Origin: Pseudomonas fluorescens Q2-87 | GTDB lineage: Bacteria; Pseudomonadota; Gammaproteobacteria; Pseudomonadales; Pseudomonadaceae | Direction: 5' to 3' | Length of the DNA: 64,000 nt | Assembly (NCBI RefSeq): GCF_000281895.1 | Contig: NZ_CM001558.1 | Coordinates: 3,910,556 to 3,974,555 of the forward strand | In this document: positions 45,466-50,592 of the stretch, piece after piece | Layout: the number at the start of each line of letters is the position of its first letter | Position numbering within the stretch: the stretch's first letter is position 1 | Notes under the pieces: model-generated | Database searches by the model: none | What the model was told of the DNA's origin: nothing | The model's input: the letters and a program-made list of their open reading frames with translations, nothing else | Program-made: the position numbers and the translations under genes

Positions 45466-46197
45466 ATGTACAGGACGACGTCATTCCCACCCAACAAAGA
45501 AGGTCGTGATTTTGCGGTGGGCGACATTCACGGACACTTCAAACTTCTAACACAAGCCTTGGATAAGTTGGATTTCAATAGCGAAGTGGACCGTATTTTT
45601 TCTGTGGGAGACCTCATCGACCGAGGCCCCGACTCCATAGACGCATTGAACTGGCTTGAAAAACCGTGGTTCCATGCCGTGCGCGGCAACCATGAACATA
45701 TGCTTATCGAGTGCATCTCCGGCCACGGCGACATACCCAGGCATATCCGAAATGGAGGGGCTTGGCTCTACGAATTACAGCCAGACATCCAGCGTGAACT
45801 CTTAAAAGCTTTACAAGCACTCCCATTGATCATTGAAATCAATTTATCAAGCGATCAAACAATTGGAATAGTCCATGCCGAAGCCCCTGTCATGAGGAGT
45901 AACGATGGCTGGCAAGAAGCTAAAGACGCTATTACTGGAAAATCGGGGAAGCAGCATCAGCGGCAAGCCTTGAAAACAGCGTTGTATACAAGAGAGAAAA
46001 TCGAGCAGCAAGACCACACGCCTATTAAAGGCATCGACCGGCTCTATGTCGGGCATTCAACAGTGCCTGGCGTCAGGCGCTTGGGCAATGTTATATATAT
46101 TGATACTGGCTGCGCATTTTCCGACGGCGCGTTAAGCTTGGTGAACATCCAGACTGAAATGATCGCCAGTATAAGCATGAGCGAAGCGCGCCCTTAA
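45466..46197 (+). CDS. Metallophosphoesterase (PrpA/lambda phosphatase-like)
   Basis: A 243-residue enzyme with the binuclear metal motifs of PPP-type phosphatases: FAVGDIHGHF (DxH), FSVGDLIDRGPDS (GDxxDRG), AVRGNHEHM (GNHE), and later YVGHSTVPGV (His). Bacterial members of this size are protein or dinucleotide phosphatases. The base composition is more AT-rich than the preceding genes, so it marks the start of the accessory region. The start ATG is at 45466. Confidence 0.88.
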   Translation: MYRTTSFPPNKEGRDFAVGDIHGHFKLLTQALDKLDFNSEVDRIFSVGDLIDRGPDSIDALNWLEKPWFHAVRGNHEHMLIECISGHGDIPRHIRNGGAWLYELQPDIQRELLKALQALPLIIEINLSSDQTIGIVHAEAPVMRSNDGWQEAKDAITGKSGKQHQRQALKTALYTREKIEQQDHTPIKGIDRLYVGHSTVPGVRRLGNVIYIDTGCAFSDGALSLVNIQTEMIASISMSEARP

Positions 46198-46589: not shown

Positions 46590-46651
46590 GACAACCTCCT
46601 CAAATTAACCTAATAGATTTTTCCCTACCGCCCTCATGACGGCACAGTAAA

Positions 46652-46721
46652 GATTGAAGATTGAAGGTTGAAGATTGAAGGTTGAAGGTTGAAGGTTGAA
46701 GGTTGAAGGTTGAAGGTTGAA
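46652..46721. repeat. Ten tandem 7-bp repeats (GRTTGAA)
   Basis: Ten contiguous heptamers, three GATTGAA (units 1, 2, 4) and seven GGTTGAA. The period is 7, so any open frame through it is low-complexity and probably not real (minus-strand FNLQPST-like). It lies between the broken small ORF and the tRNA-like RNA. Such arrays vary in copy number by slippage and can be replication or protein-binding sites. Confidence 0.9.
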
Positions 46722-46925: not shown

Positions 46926-47052
46926 TGGTGGCTGGCGGAGGACTCGAACCTCCATCTACCCCTCGAATACCACCTAAAATCCAGGTGTCATTCGAGGGAA
47001 GGCTGCGCCGTAGCGCAGCCGTAGGGCGCATTACCGATTATGCTAACCAGCC
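46926..47052 (-). ncRNA. tRNA-like RNA with two hairpins in place of an anticodon arm
   Basis: On the minus strand this 127-base element has a 7-bp acceptor stem (GGCTGGT/GCCAGCC), discriminator A and encoded CCA. The D arm is perfect (GCAT/ATGC, loop AATCGGTA with GG). The T arm is perfect (GGAGG/CCTCC, loop TTCGAGT). Between D and T arms, where an anticodon arm should be, a 4-bp stem (CTAC/GTAG) encloses two hairpins. One is GGCTGCGC-TACG-GCGCAGCC, an 8-bp stem with a UNCG-type tetraloop. The other is a 9-bp stem CCCTCGAAT/ATTCGAGGG topped, after a 2x2 internal loop, by CACCT/AGGTG with a 7-base loop GGATTTT. No U33-type anticodon loop exists. The first base coincides with the last base of the upstream gene's stop codon. 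It could be a tmRNA-like or decoy RNA, or a tRNA gene altered by insertion. Confidence 0.6.
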
Positions 47053-47834
47053 TACATTTTCGAAAATAGCTCATTCGCAGAATAACTGTCAAGGAGATAT
47101 TCTTGTTGAAGATGCTGAATAATTCCTTTAGCTCGCCTATCCCCGGTTATTCCCTTATACCTTTTTGCCACCAAAGGAAGCACATCTTTTTCTGGATCTA
47201 ATGACTTGACACACAAATCTAGAATCACCTGCTGCCAGACTTTCGACAACAAAATCATATCCTGACTATTCAAACTTCCCGGCTGACTTGGAGTGCATCC
47301 ATACTTAGCGGCTATATTAGTAACTTGGGGTTGACCGAAAGAATACGCCGCACTAGCTTTGCCTCCATGAAAATTTTCGTTTCTTAGCTTCCTATAATAA
47401 TCAATTATCGCAACATCCCCAACATCCACCAGCTCGCCCATCGCCACATCATCATTCACTATCGTAGAGGAGTCATTCCTTGAAGCATATAAAACGCGGA
47501 CAGTCTGTCGTAAATAATCTCCCTCCACGGCAGCTGTAGGTTTGCGCACCAAGGGCTGCTTTCTTATTTTTTCACACGCAACTTCAGCCTTACCATTTAT
47601 AAAAGCTATATGAGAAACATAAACAAACTGTTTCGTACGATCCAACTCTAGCTGATCTAAATACAACCTCCCATACCCTAATAGCTTTGCCTTTGCCGCT
47701 ATAAACTTGGAAGGACTTACACTAACTTTAGCATCATCCAAGAAAATCCTAACCGATGAGTCCACAATAGCCATGTATGGATTGATGCTACCCAACTCTT
47801 TCTTCAACTCAGTAAAAATTGCACCTGGCGTCAT
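47052..47834 (-). CDS. HEPN-motif protein of unknown function, 260 aa
   Basis: The ATG at 47834 has GGAGGG at good spacing (an in-frame GTG at 47846 is the alternative). The protein is mixed helical, with an early strand-rich part (SSVRIFLDDAKVSVSPSKF, FVYVSHIAFING). In the second half YYRKLRNENFHGGKAS contains R-x4-H in the RNxxxH form typical of HEPN RNase or nucleotide-binding domains. It ends with a helical tail (SYSANELFSKM). It follows the AAA/TOPRIM gene by 40 bases and directly abuts the tRNA-like RNA, so it is likely part of one unit. I know no named family; the HEPN call rests on the motif and its context. Confidence 0.55.
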   Translation of the reverse strand: MTPGAIFTELKKELGSINPYMAIVDSSVRIFLDDAKVSVSPSKFIAAKAKLLGYGRLYLDQLELDRTKQFVYVSHIAFINGKAEVACEKIRKQPLVRKPTAAVEGDYLRQTVRVLYASRNDSSTIVNDDVAMGELVDVGDVAIIDYYRKLRNENFHGGKASAAYSFGQPQVTNIAAKYGCTPSQPGSLNSQDMILLSKVWQQVILDLCVKSLDPEKDVLPLVAKRYKGITGDRRAKGIIQHLQQEYLLDSYSANELFSKM

Positions 47835-47874
47835 CACACCCTCCACCCAAAACTTTAAAGCCCAAAAGAAGTTC

Positions 47875-49585
47875 TCAACTAGTCAAAGCAGGCATTCCGC
47901 TCATGGCGTTTATTTTATTGATAGCATTCACAAACGAAATTAAAAAACCATCTCGACCTTCCGCCACACCACAATAATAAGTTATATACTCTTTGAATTT
48001 GAGCTTATCTTTGTCCGCCCACGACTTACAATTCGCAACTGGTGTTTTAGCCTCATCCATAACATCCTTAACTGCTAACGACTTAATACCCGCATCCTTA
48101 AACTCACCCAAAAGACGCTCGCGTTCTTTTTTAAACTTTACGAAAAAATTATCATCATTTTCCAACTCCAAGATAAACACTATAATTCGCCGCTCAATTG
48201 CCAATCCCTGATCATCAGGCAACGTCAAATAGAGGCTTTTATTTTTATATTGTCAGTCACTGTAGCGGGTACATCCCCATCAAATAAAACCAGGCTCCGT
48301 TCAAGTAGCAACGGGTAGTTCACACACAAGGCACGTAATGCGGAATAAGATGTACCCGGACCATTTTCCTGTTTATTCAATGACGAATGAAACTCAACAC
48401 AGCTTAATATTTTTCTCGACTTTATTAGTTTTTTTGCAAAATGGACAGCATGATCATCCTCGCAAAAAACTCTTATTTTTCTAGCTTTAACAGCCTCTTC
48501 TGGATCCTGAAGTGTCAGCTCTTTGTATGCCAGTTCATAAGGAGGATTACGAAGAATCGGATAGTTTCCGTCCACCGCGGTAGATTTGCTAACAAAATTA
48601 ACTACTATTCTATCTTTCTTTAAGTTCTCACCATGCTCCAAATAAATATGAGAAATCAGATGGAGCGAATGCGTTGATACGATCACCTGAACGTTGTACT
48701 TACTCGACCAGCGCTGGAGATAATCAAAAAGTCTTAATTGAGCAACAGGATGTAAACTACTTTCGAATTCATCTATACAAAAATCCCATTACCCCCACCA
48801 TTTCTCCCTTTAAAAGAGCGCCTAAAACCTAGAAGCCTATTGAATATAGCCCCCAAATTATCCTCCCCCGAAGATATCGAAAGCCAATCATACCTCGCGC
48901 CTTCTCCTACAGGGGCAAAAGTTGTCTTGACATTTTTTTCGTGCACGGGAGTAAACTGATTATAATCAGTACTTGGCAATACCGTTTCATAGTAGTCCTT
49001 CAGATCAGCAGCTTCTTCGGGACTCAAATCAAGTGACGCCGCCTTATCCGGGACGGCCTTAGTATCAACCAAAGGATACAGTCTTTTCAAATTTAGAAAG
49101 GACGTATTATATGCAAAGTTACCATCTCCCTTTTCAGCGCCAGACACTACAACTCGATGGCGATTAGTTTTATCGCCAACATAGTACATCGCCACAGTTT
49201 CTTTCAGCATTATCCCTTTGTCCGTACAAAGGATCAAGTCATATTCATACCTATCCCTGTCGAAAACAGGAGACAACTTAAATACTTCTTTTAATGGCGT
49301 TTTCAGAACCTTGCCAAAGACATCTTGAGCCTCACTATTAAAGGGGTGCGCTATCAACCCCATCAAGGATGTTTTCATCGTCCCATTACGGCCAGAAAAT
49401 ATCGTAATGTTTTTCCCTAAAAAAACATCTTGATCCTGCATAGTTCTAAATCGCTTAATCGCAATACCTGCGATTGAGGCAATAACAACTTCCTTGTTTT
49501 CTGAATAACCCAGCTCAATCTTAGTTGAAGCCGAAGGAAATTTTTTCATCCCGGAGAGTCTCATTATGACAAAATGCCACCACAT
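47875..49585 (-). pseudogene. OLD-like AAA ATPase with TOPRIM domain, two frameshifts
   Basis: Three frames joined give about 570 residues. ATPase parts: Walker A FSGRNGTMKTSL (about 63-74), ABC-like signature SISSGEDNLGAI, Walker B GIFCIDEFESSLHP and H-loop IVSTHS. TOPRIM parts: RVFCEDDHAVHFAKKLI (Glu), LVLFDGDV (DxD) and TLPDDQGLAIE. The first frame break is at a run of five T (about 48780-48784), right before Walker B. The second is at a run of five A near 48240. Adding one base at each restores a continuous protein. The family (OLD/GajA-type nucleases) includes phage-defence effectors. As read, the gene is dead unless the sequence is wrong or frameshifting is programmed. Confidence 0.75.
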
Positions 49586-49646: not shown

Positions 49647-50442
49647 TCAGAACAGCCTATCAAGCAAACTGGGCTCCCAATTCATAATCACCAACTCCCG
49701 ACTCACTTCTGCGTTTCCTTGCCGTTGATTAGTGGAACTGTAGCGAATATCCAGCGTCTCTAAGTAAAAGCCCTCAAACACCCGCCGAATGTCTGGGTGA
49801 TCGTTAATGCTCACCATCACCTTGCCCTTGCACCGACGCATGAAATAGGCCATTCGCTCGTAGTTTTCGAACGGAAAGTCCACCCCATATCCGGCTGTCT
49901 GCCAGTAAGGCGGATCCATGTAGTGGAAGGTATGGGGGACGGTCGTAGCGCTCTGCACATTCTAGCCAGGGCAGGTTTTCGACGTAGGTGCCAGACAGAC
50001 GCTGCCAGGCGGCCGAGAGATTTTCCTCGATCCGCAACAGGTTGATGGCTGGGCCGGTAGTGGCAGTGCCGAACGTCTGCCCGGTGACCTTGGCGGCGAA
50101 GGCATGGTGCTGCAGGTAGAAAAATCGTGCGGCGCGCTGGATGTAGGTGAGGGTTTCGGGGCGGCTCATCTTCTGCCACTCGAACACCTGCCGAGAACTG
50201 TGCGCCCATTTGAATTGGCGCACGAACTCTTCGAGGTGGTTCTGCGCCACGCGGTACAGCGTCACCAGGTCGCCGTTGATGTCGTTGAGGACTGCGACCG
50301 GTGCTGCCTGAGGCCGCATGAAGTAGAGCGCGGCACCGCCGGCAAAGACTTCAACGTAGCATTCGTGAGGTGGGAACAAAGGAATGAGGCGGTCGGCCAG
50401 GCGGTGTTTGCCGCCCATCCAAGGGACGATGGGTGTAGACAT
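49647..50442 (-). pseudogene. DNA adenine methylase (Dam/D12 class), frameshifted
   Basis: The start MSTPIVPWMGGKHRLADRLI (50442) holds the SAM-binding PWMGGK and then YVEVFAGGAALYFM. The frame is lost after ECAERYDRP at a run of five C near 49943. In the next frame HTFHYMDPPYWQTAGYGVDF carries the catalytic DPPY motif and continues to LLDRLF. A run of four C would restore a 264-residue phage-type Dam. A LexA box stands 18 bases before the ATG. It lies next to lysis genes and belongs to prophage remains. Confidence 0.8.
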
Positions 50443-50459
50443 AGATAGCAAGACCTTTA

Positions 50460-50475
50460 CTGTATGGATAAACAG
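50460..50475. promoter_or_regulatory. LexA (SOS) box upstream of the phage dam
   Basis: CTGTATGGATAAACAG fits CTG-N10-CAG with the usual TAT and A-rich centre. It sits 18 bases before the dam ATG, with the GTAAAGG ribosome site between, so the methylase would be damage-induced. Confidence 0.7.
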
Positions 50476-50592
50476 GTGCCAGCTTCGCCGCGCTTCGTGC
50501 ACGGAGTAAGAGCCTTGGCTGGACTTGCAGGGACAATCTGCAGGGACGGCGGTAGGGTTGGATGTTGACGCATCCAACCCGGCCGCTCTTTT

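Follow-up and report, generated by a model that had tools for sequence, protein, structure and literature searches.

The DNA analyzed here places an OLD-like ATPase gene, a gene for a protein with a HEPN-type motif, and a tRNA-shaped RNA next to one another, and it raises the question of which of these belong together and what the RNA does. In the window (the whole stretch of 64,000 nucleotides, to which all coordinates without a locus name refer), the minus strand carries, in 5′ to 3′ order, a D12-class DNA adenine methyltransferase gene split into two overlapping open reading frames (ORFs) (49647..50577), a broken OLD-like AAA/TOPRIM ATPase gene (47875..49585), a gene for a 260-amino-acid (aa) RNENFH protein (47052..47834), and a 127-nt tRNA-like RNA with an encoded 3′ CCA (46926..47052). 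We confirmed on one strand all three elements named in a preliminary description of this DNA: the AAA/TOPRIM ATPase, which is frameshifted, the RNxxxH protein of 260 aa, and the tRNA-like RNA lacking an anticodon. The 40-nt spacing between the ATPase stop codon and the ATG of the HEPN-like gene was likewise confirmed, whereas the supposed 0-base gap between protein gene and RNA is actually a one-base overlap, the last base of the stop codon being the first base of the RNA. The locus lies in a prophage-like region. Beyond it, a metallophosphoesterase gene on the plus strand (45466-46197; PF00149, 3e-12) faces the unit, and about ten copies of the 7-base unit AAGGTTG (46650-46721) follow some 200 bases past the RNA 3′ end.

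The HEPN-like gene reads from an ATG at 47834 to a stop codon at 47054-47052, and its product contains the motif R-N-E-N-F-H (R151-N-x-x-x-H156). R151 and H156 were invariant in 20 of 20 aligned rows, and N152 was kept in at least 18 of them. This is the RxxxxH motif of HEPN ribonucleases, often RN-xxx-H at a helix end, and the structural model has a helix at residues 138 to 155. Structure comparison, which had been proposed as a check on the fold, gave weak matches, and a HEPN fold is weakly supported by these together with the motif. No PADLOC family matched the window protein or its relatives P0009, P0016, and P0019. The protein is under purifying selection, with a dN/dS of 0.136 between the window gene and the copy at a second Pseudomonas locus, L002 (83% identical protein).

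A tRNA-like RNA without an anticodon arm

The RNA folds at -69.4 kcal/mol (129 nt, including two extra 5′ bases), with a z score of -6.8 and none of 200 shuffled sequences as good. All its parts lie on the minus strand: a 7-bp acceptor stem (5′ strand, 47046..47052; 3′ strand, 46930..46936, followed by A and CCA), a D arm with GG in its loop (47028..47043), and a T arm (46937..46953; GGAGG-TTCGAGT-CCTCC). An anticodon arm with a 7-nt loop is absent, in line with the earlier reading of the RNA as a tRNA mimic without an anticodon, and two hairpins stand in its place in four of four RNA sequences; hairpin 1 (47001..47020) has 8 bp and a UACG loop, and hairpin 2 occupies 46960..46998. Thus, the RNA resembles canonical bacterial tRNAs in its 7-bp acceptor stem, D arm with GG, T arm with TTCGAGT or TTCGAAT, and encoded CCA, whereas it differs from them in the replaced anticodon arm and in its length of 126 to 131 nt.

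Existing tools do not assign the RNA to a family. ARAGORN does not report the window RNA, Rfam gave no family at the gathering threshold for the window or at an E value of ≤1 for L001, L002, L007, and L008, and the NCBI annotation of a relative on one E. coli plasmid is "tRNA-OTHER." With a covariance model built from the four RNAs, ordinary tRNA genes likewise reach about 50 bits, and 16 of 16 such loci checked were tRNA genes. Compared with 36 distinct host tRNA sequences (50 loci read of 67 tRNA matches), the 5′ strand of the acceptor stem agrees at no more than 5 of its 7 bases. A search for a parent tRNA yielded none that was clear, the best body scores, those of tRNA-Cys and tRNA-Lys(UUU), not being decisive; a tRNA with an intron, a tmRNA, and an attachment-site remnant were dropped as identities by inspection.

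We further tested 29 pairs (acceptor, D, T, and hairpin 2) in the four distinct RNA sequences. The structure held in 115 of 115 cells with two-sided changes at 11 of the 29 pairs, and covariation was 0.506 versus 0.210 in shuffles (0 of 500 as high) and at most 0.126 when the structure was slid, figures that are favored by drawing the structure from the same sequences and that come from only four of them. Standard pairs were found in every tested cell of the acceptor, D, and T arms, which are kept along with the CCA in all four sequences (one T-stem cell of L007 being a gap), and hairpin 2 showed two-sided changes at 6 of 13 tested pairs. Relative to the window, the acceptor stem of L013 has one G-C replaced by A-U and a U-G by G-C. 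MAFFT did not align hairpin 1 in register, and this hairpin was therefore excluded from the pair counts and the RNA model; its pairing comes from single-sequence folding, and one C-G pair of the window is U-A in L002. In L007 and L013 the unconstrained minimum-energy fold deviates in the D-arm region, and forming the canonical D arm there takes 0.7 and 4.3 kcal/mol, respectively. As judged from the sequences, the tRNA-like RNA is under selection as a structure.

Linkage of the RNA to HEPN-like genes

Protein searches identified 8 and then 19 HEPN-like homologues, the first eight close (62 to 95% identity, with Pseudomonas as the source of the three named ones) and the rest at 25 to 31%. A viral contig, L001, carries a 100% identical protein, the same interrupted ATPase frames, and the same RNA; it may come from the same or a nearly identical strain and was not counted as independent. 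The relative at L002 combines the 83% identical protein with an intact ATPase (558 aa) and an intact methyltransferase (267 aa). Furthermore, when 72,556 plasmid records were searched in translation, the distant form turned up in 49, all of them enterobacterial. There the same RNA, complete with acceptor stem, D arm, both hairpins, T arm, and CCA, lies directly at the 3′ end of the gene. The metagenomic contig L013, which from our reading of its ORFs is a phage contig with lysozyme- and terminase-like genes, also has a distant homologue with the same RNA. In total, the RNA was read or matched by the model in the window and at L001, L002, L007 to L010, L013, and L084, the first eight of these representing four distinct sequences.

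The plasmid collection contains the RNA at ≥99% in 50 records, and a protein search with a sister sequence listed 50 records, 49 full length and one with the last 46 residues only, the two sets being compared by their totals. That one record (L084:3001-3253) keeps an intact RNA, and the remnant of the protein gene is immediately preceded by a gene for an IS3-family transposase. No HEPN-like homologue without the RNA was seen at the DNA level. Thus, the HEPN-like protein and the tRNA-like RNA form one conserved unit, and the earlier suggestion that the two belong together is borne out by the same RNA in the same place beside homologues of 25 to 31% identity.

Relatives were few in the collections searched. 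The protein was found in 1 of 5,426 E. coli genomes (on a plasmid), in none of 50,697 phage records searched by protein with three HEPN queries, and in 1 of 57 and 1 of 398 genomes of two further sets, both times the window's own. Genome contigs scanned with Pseudomonas-type patterns gave no further relatives. At 1e-15 or better, the RNA model matched 1 of 390 genomes of the order, again the window's own; among the matches listed for 369 genomes of the class (the best 8 or 9 candidates per genome scored), only the window RNA exceeded 56 bits, the others being 75 to 77 nt. A looser DNA pattern, which would miss L013, retrieved 33 viral stretches, two of them known loci, and by eye the architecture was present in none of the other 31.

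The stop codon of the HEPN-like gene overlaps the 5′ end of the RNA at seven of seven loci computed, in two different frames: it occupies RNA positions -1 to 1 in the window and L002 and positions 13 to 15 at the other loci. Since the first RNA bases are read in different protein frames, their conservation is not protein conservation, and the RNA itself is conserved. The window and L002 are 84.0% identical over the HEPN gene and 93.7% over the RNA, and identity falls to 35.5% over the 300 nt that follow, so conservation ends with the RNA. Homologues known as protein bear the signature of the overlap as well: a [GD]W[LIV]A C terminus occurs in 11 of 11 sequences of the non-Pseudomonas type, and a KAG C terminus in four of the Pseudomonas type fits, by back-translation, the same RNA bases in a third frame. 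The C termini of P0001, P0002, and P0007 resemble that of the window protein and are uninformative by themselves. P0004 reads on into translated RNA that it matches only in pieces and from different frames, so its RNA may be altered.

As for the genomic setting, an "abortive infection family protein" gene lies about 0.6 kb after the RNA at four of four plasmid loci (L007:6068-6886 and the same place in L008 to L010); the one copy tested, that of L007, matched Abi_C at 1.1e-14 and AbiJ at 7.6e-11. In the phage contig, a DUF4145 protein (PD-T7-4-like; second upstream) and another protein precede the unit (L013:3337-4759), which is possibly a cargo spot before the lysis genes. Prophage, plasmid, and phage settings with defense-like genes fit a role in antiphage defense.

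Possible roles of the RNA and of the neighboring ATPase

We give an even chance to a two-part antiphage unit of the toxin-antitoxin type in which the anticodon-less tRNA mimic restrains a HEPN tRNA nuclease. The toxin would be a HEPN ribonuclease, most likely cutting tRNA or a similar RNA, and the antitoxin would be the tRNA-shaped RNA released from the 3′ end of the toxin's own transcript. As a pseudosubstrate with no anticodon loop to cut, the RNA would occupy the tRNA-binding site of the nuclease and keep the enzyme inactive; for a blocker of a tRNA anticodon nuclease, one would expect just such a tRNA body, lacking the anticodon loop and encoded where the toxin gene ends. If RNase P matures the 5′ end of the RNA as it does that of a normal pre-tRNA, it would remove or split the toxin stop codon. 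Because this cut would fall at the stop codon, one transcript could not yield both the mature RNA and a complete toxin message, and such mutual exclusion would act as a built-in dosage control. Infection would then free the toxin, whether by depleting the RNA, by bringing in a phage nuclease that acts on RNA, or by triggering release directly. An antitoxin-like or decoy role, already suggested in the preliminary description, is thus the best reading of the RNA. A more specific version is tentative, in our estimate perhaps one chance in three: the RNA would be an antitoxin of a new class, derived from an entire tRNA whose anticodon arm was swapped for two hairpins to give an uncuttable filler of the tRNA site of a HEPN tRNA nuclease, with toxin and antitoxin as alternative products because RNase P maturation destroys the toxin stop codon.

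The main rival, which we consider rather unlikely, is a bait or cofactor role: the RNA would sit on the HEPN protein as a cofactor or decoy tRNA, and phage enzymes that attack tRNA or repair RNA, or changed tRNA processing, would alter it and activate the nuclease. The RNA retains what a stand-in for tRNA would require, namely the tRNA body, its elbow arms, and the CCA, and the occurrence in a phage contig, in prophages, and on plasmids with defense-like genes suits such a sensor. Nevertheless, the RNA offers no anticodon loop to attack, its hairpin loop sequences are not conserved among the four RNAs (by eye), and there is no known trigger. Less probable still is that the tRNA-like fold acts in cis only: as a signal for 3′ processing, by RNase P and tRNA 3′ maturation, it would shorten the toxin mRNA and restrict how much of it is translated, and the RNA, once mature, would have no separate role. 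The coincidence of RNA start and ORF end at all seven loci agrees with this idea, which is also compatible with the antitoxin reading in that both can be true together; RNase P, however, does not need two such extra hairpins, one of them with compensatory changes.

It was also proposed that the OLD-like ATPase belongs to the unit; in such a three-part system, it would sense for the HEPN-RNA pair. This we consider improbable; the HEPN and RNA pair of the proposal stands, and the ATPase, as a core part, was rejected on the basis of its genomic context. In the window, L001, and L002, the three lie close together on the same strand. The window ATPase consists of three ORF pieces in three frames (49585-48773, 48686-48225, and 48228-47875), and it is broken whereas the HEPN gene and RNA are intact. 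It is 88.4% identical to the intact relative (558 aa; L002:4287-5960), and the 2 gap columns (1,711 versus 1,713 bases) are consistent with two frame breaks. The intact copy matched Pfam AAA_15 (2e-15) and no Pfam TOPRIM family, while the profile matched an OLD-family endonuclease (6p74, 2.5e-5) and an AAA ATPase (9n69, 2.5e-6); E364, D424, and D426, invariant in 19 of 19 aligned relatives, were read as the TOPRIM-like E and DxD.

The check suggested beforehand, that HEPN homologues always adjoin the ATPase, failed at five loci: no ATPase is annotated around the HEPN-like gene at the four plasmid loci, and none occurs among the ORFs of ≥90 aa at L013:1000-10000. Conversely, ATPase relatives are common (533 proteins at an E value of ≤0.001, versus 19 HEPN-like relatives), and only two plasmid records, both Acinetobacter and outside the genera of the HEPN carriers, have one at ≤1e-20. 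We found 14 ATPase loci without HEPN, 11 viral (L047 to L057) and 3 genomic (L059, L060, and L135), and the RNA model matched none of 12 (L051 and L055 left out; ORFs are identical in L050/L051 and in L054/L055). A D12 methyltransferase adjoins the ATPase in 11 of the 14 (convergent in L135) and is one gene away in L057, as confirmed by Pfam for L047 and L135 and by resemblance for the rest, with the downstream side listed for the viral loci; at L052 a transposase gene follows, and the L053 contig ends inside the ATPase. For the window methyltransferase, Pfam was run on the L002 copy.

Since its relatives mostly lie beside a D12 methyltransferase and none at an E value of ≤1e-20 is on plasmids of HEPN-bearing genera, the ATPase more likely works with the methyltransferase and is probably outside the core unit. 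The recurrent OLD-like ATPase and D12 methyltransferase pair (L047:5001-7573 and similar loci, L135, L059, and L060) looks like a methylation-linked defense system of its own, and the Pseudomonas loci more likely hold two defense-type modules side by side. The contigs of a metagenomic ATPase, P0021, and of the HEPN protein P0004 are both given a length of 4,099, and thus ATPase and HEPN genes may also be neighbors where the HEPN protein is 63% identical; their proximity in Pseudomonas may then be of long standing, and the two may be functionally linked there.

Finally, a nonfunctional remnant, i.e., a tRNA gene or attachment site that has decayed next to a gene unrelated to it, is very improbable: tRNA genes often serve as attachment sites, the region is prophage-like, and the plasmid relative is annotated merely as tRNA-OTHER, but the same architecture with compensatory changes holds a fixed place beside proteins of 25 to 31% identity on plasmids and a phage contig.

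Comparison with known systems

In RloC, PrrC, OLD/Gabija, and PARIS, an ATPase adjoins a HEPN or TOPRIM effector, and the best PADLOC match of the intact ATPase relative was AriA (5.9e-17); unlike in these systems, the ATPase is missing from homologous HEPN-RNA loci (the four plasmid loci and L013). The likeness to PD-Lambda-5 concerns the ATPase module (methyltransferase plus partner) and not the HEPN-RNA unit. The L047 methyltransferase matched PD-Lambda-5_B at 4.7e-109 and the window-type one (L002) at only 1.8e-16, and PD-Lambda-5_A was not among the best 25 of 98 PADLOC matches of the ATPase. Type III toxin-antitoxin systems have an upstream repeated RNA, whereas here the RNA is downstream and, by the RNA model, in one copy at the loci searched.

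Among the closest known systems are HepS of prophage Gifsy-1 and AbiF. To our knowledge, an RNA of this form has no precedent, and open-licence literature, screened by title or abstract start, gave no description of a HEPN gene paired with an RNA of tRNA-like form. Of the cases tested by experiment, AbiF of C. difficile is the closest, an RxxxxH protein on a prophage with one structured RNA; this RNA, RCd22, binds the HEPN toxin directly and neutralizes it both in cis and in trans (PMC12373285). RCd22 is described there as an upstream RNA of about 100 nt that contains a terminator and two repeats of the abiF motif (RF03085) (PMC12373285), whereas the tRNA-like RNA is downstream, tRNA-shaped, and overlaps the toxin stop codon. 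The searches made found no relation to AbiF/RCd22, and the window has no RF03085 match at the gathering threshold. We infer direct neutralizing binding of the HEPN toxin also for the tRNA-like RNA, and the unit looks like an RNA-controlled HEPN toxin with a new form of RNA. Such toxins are thought, as stated for AbiF, to be close to the origin of Cas13 (PMC12373285).

If our reading is true, the way in which the toxin stop codon overlaps the start of the tRNA-like RNA would provide a simple means of posttranscriptional dosage control that is open to testing, and the identity of an RNA filed as "tRNA-OTHER" by an annotation pipeline would be explained. Besides, a natural tRNA mimic that stays uncut would be a probe of how HEPN nucleases choose tRNAs, and a HEPN protein under a tRNA-shaped RNA would be a second solution beside the AbiF type.
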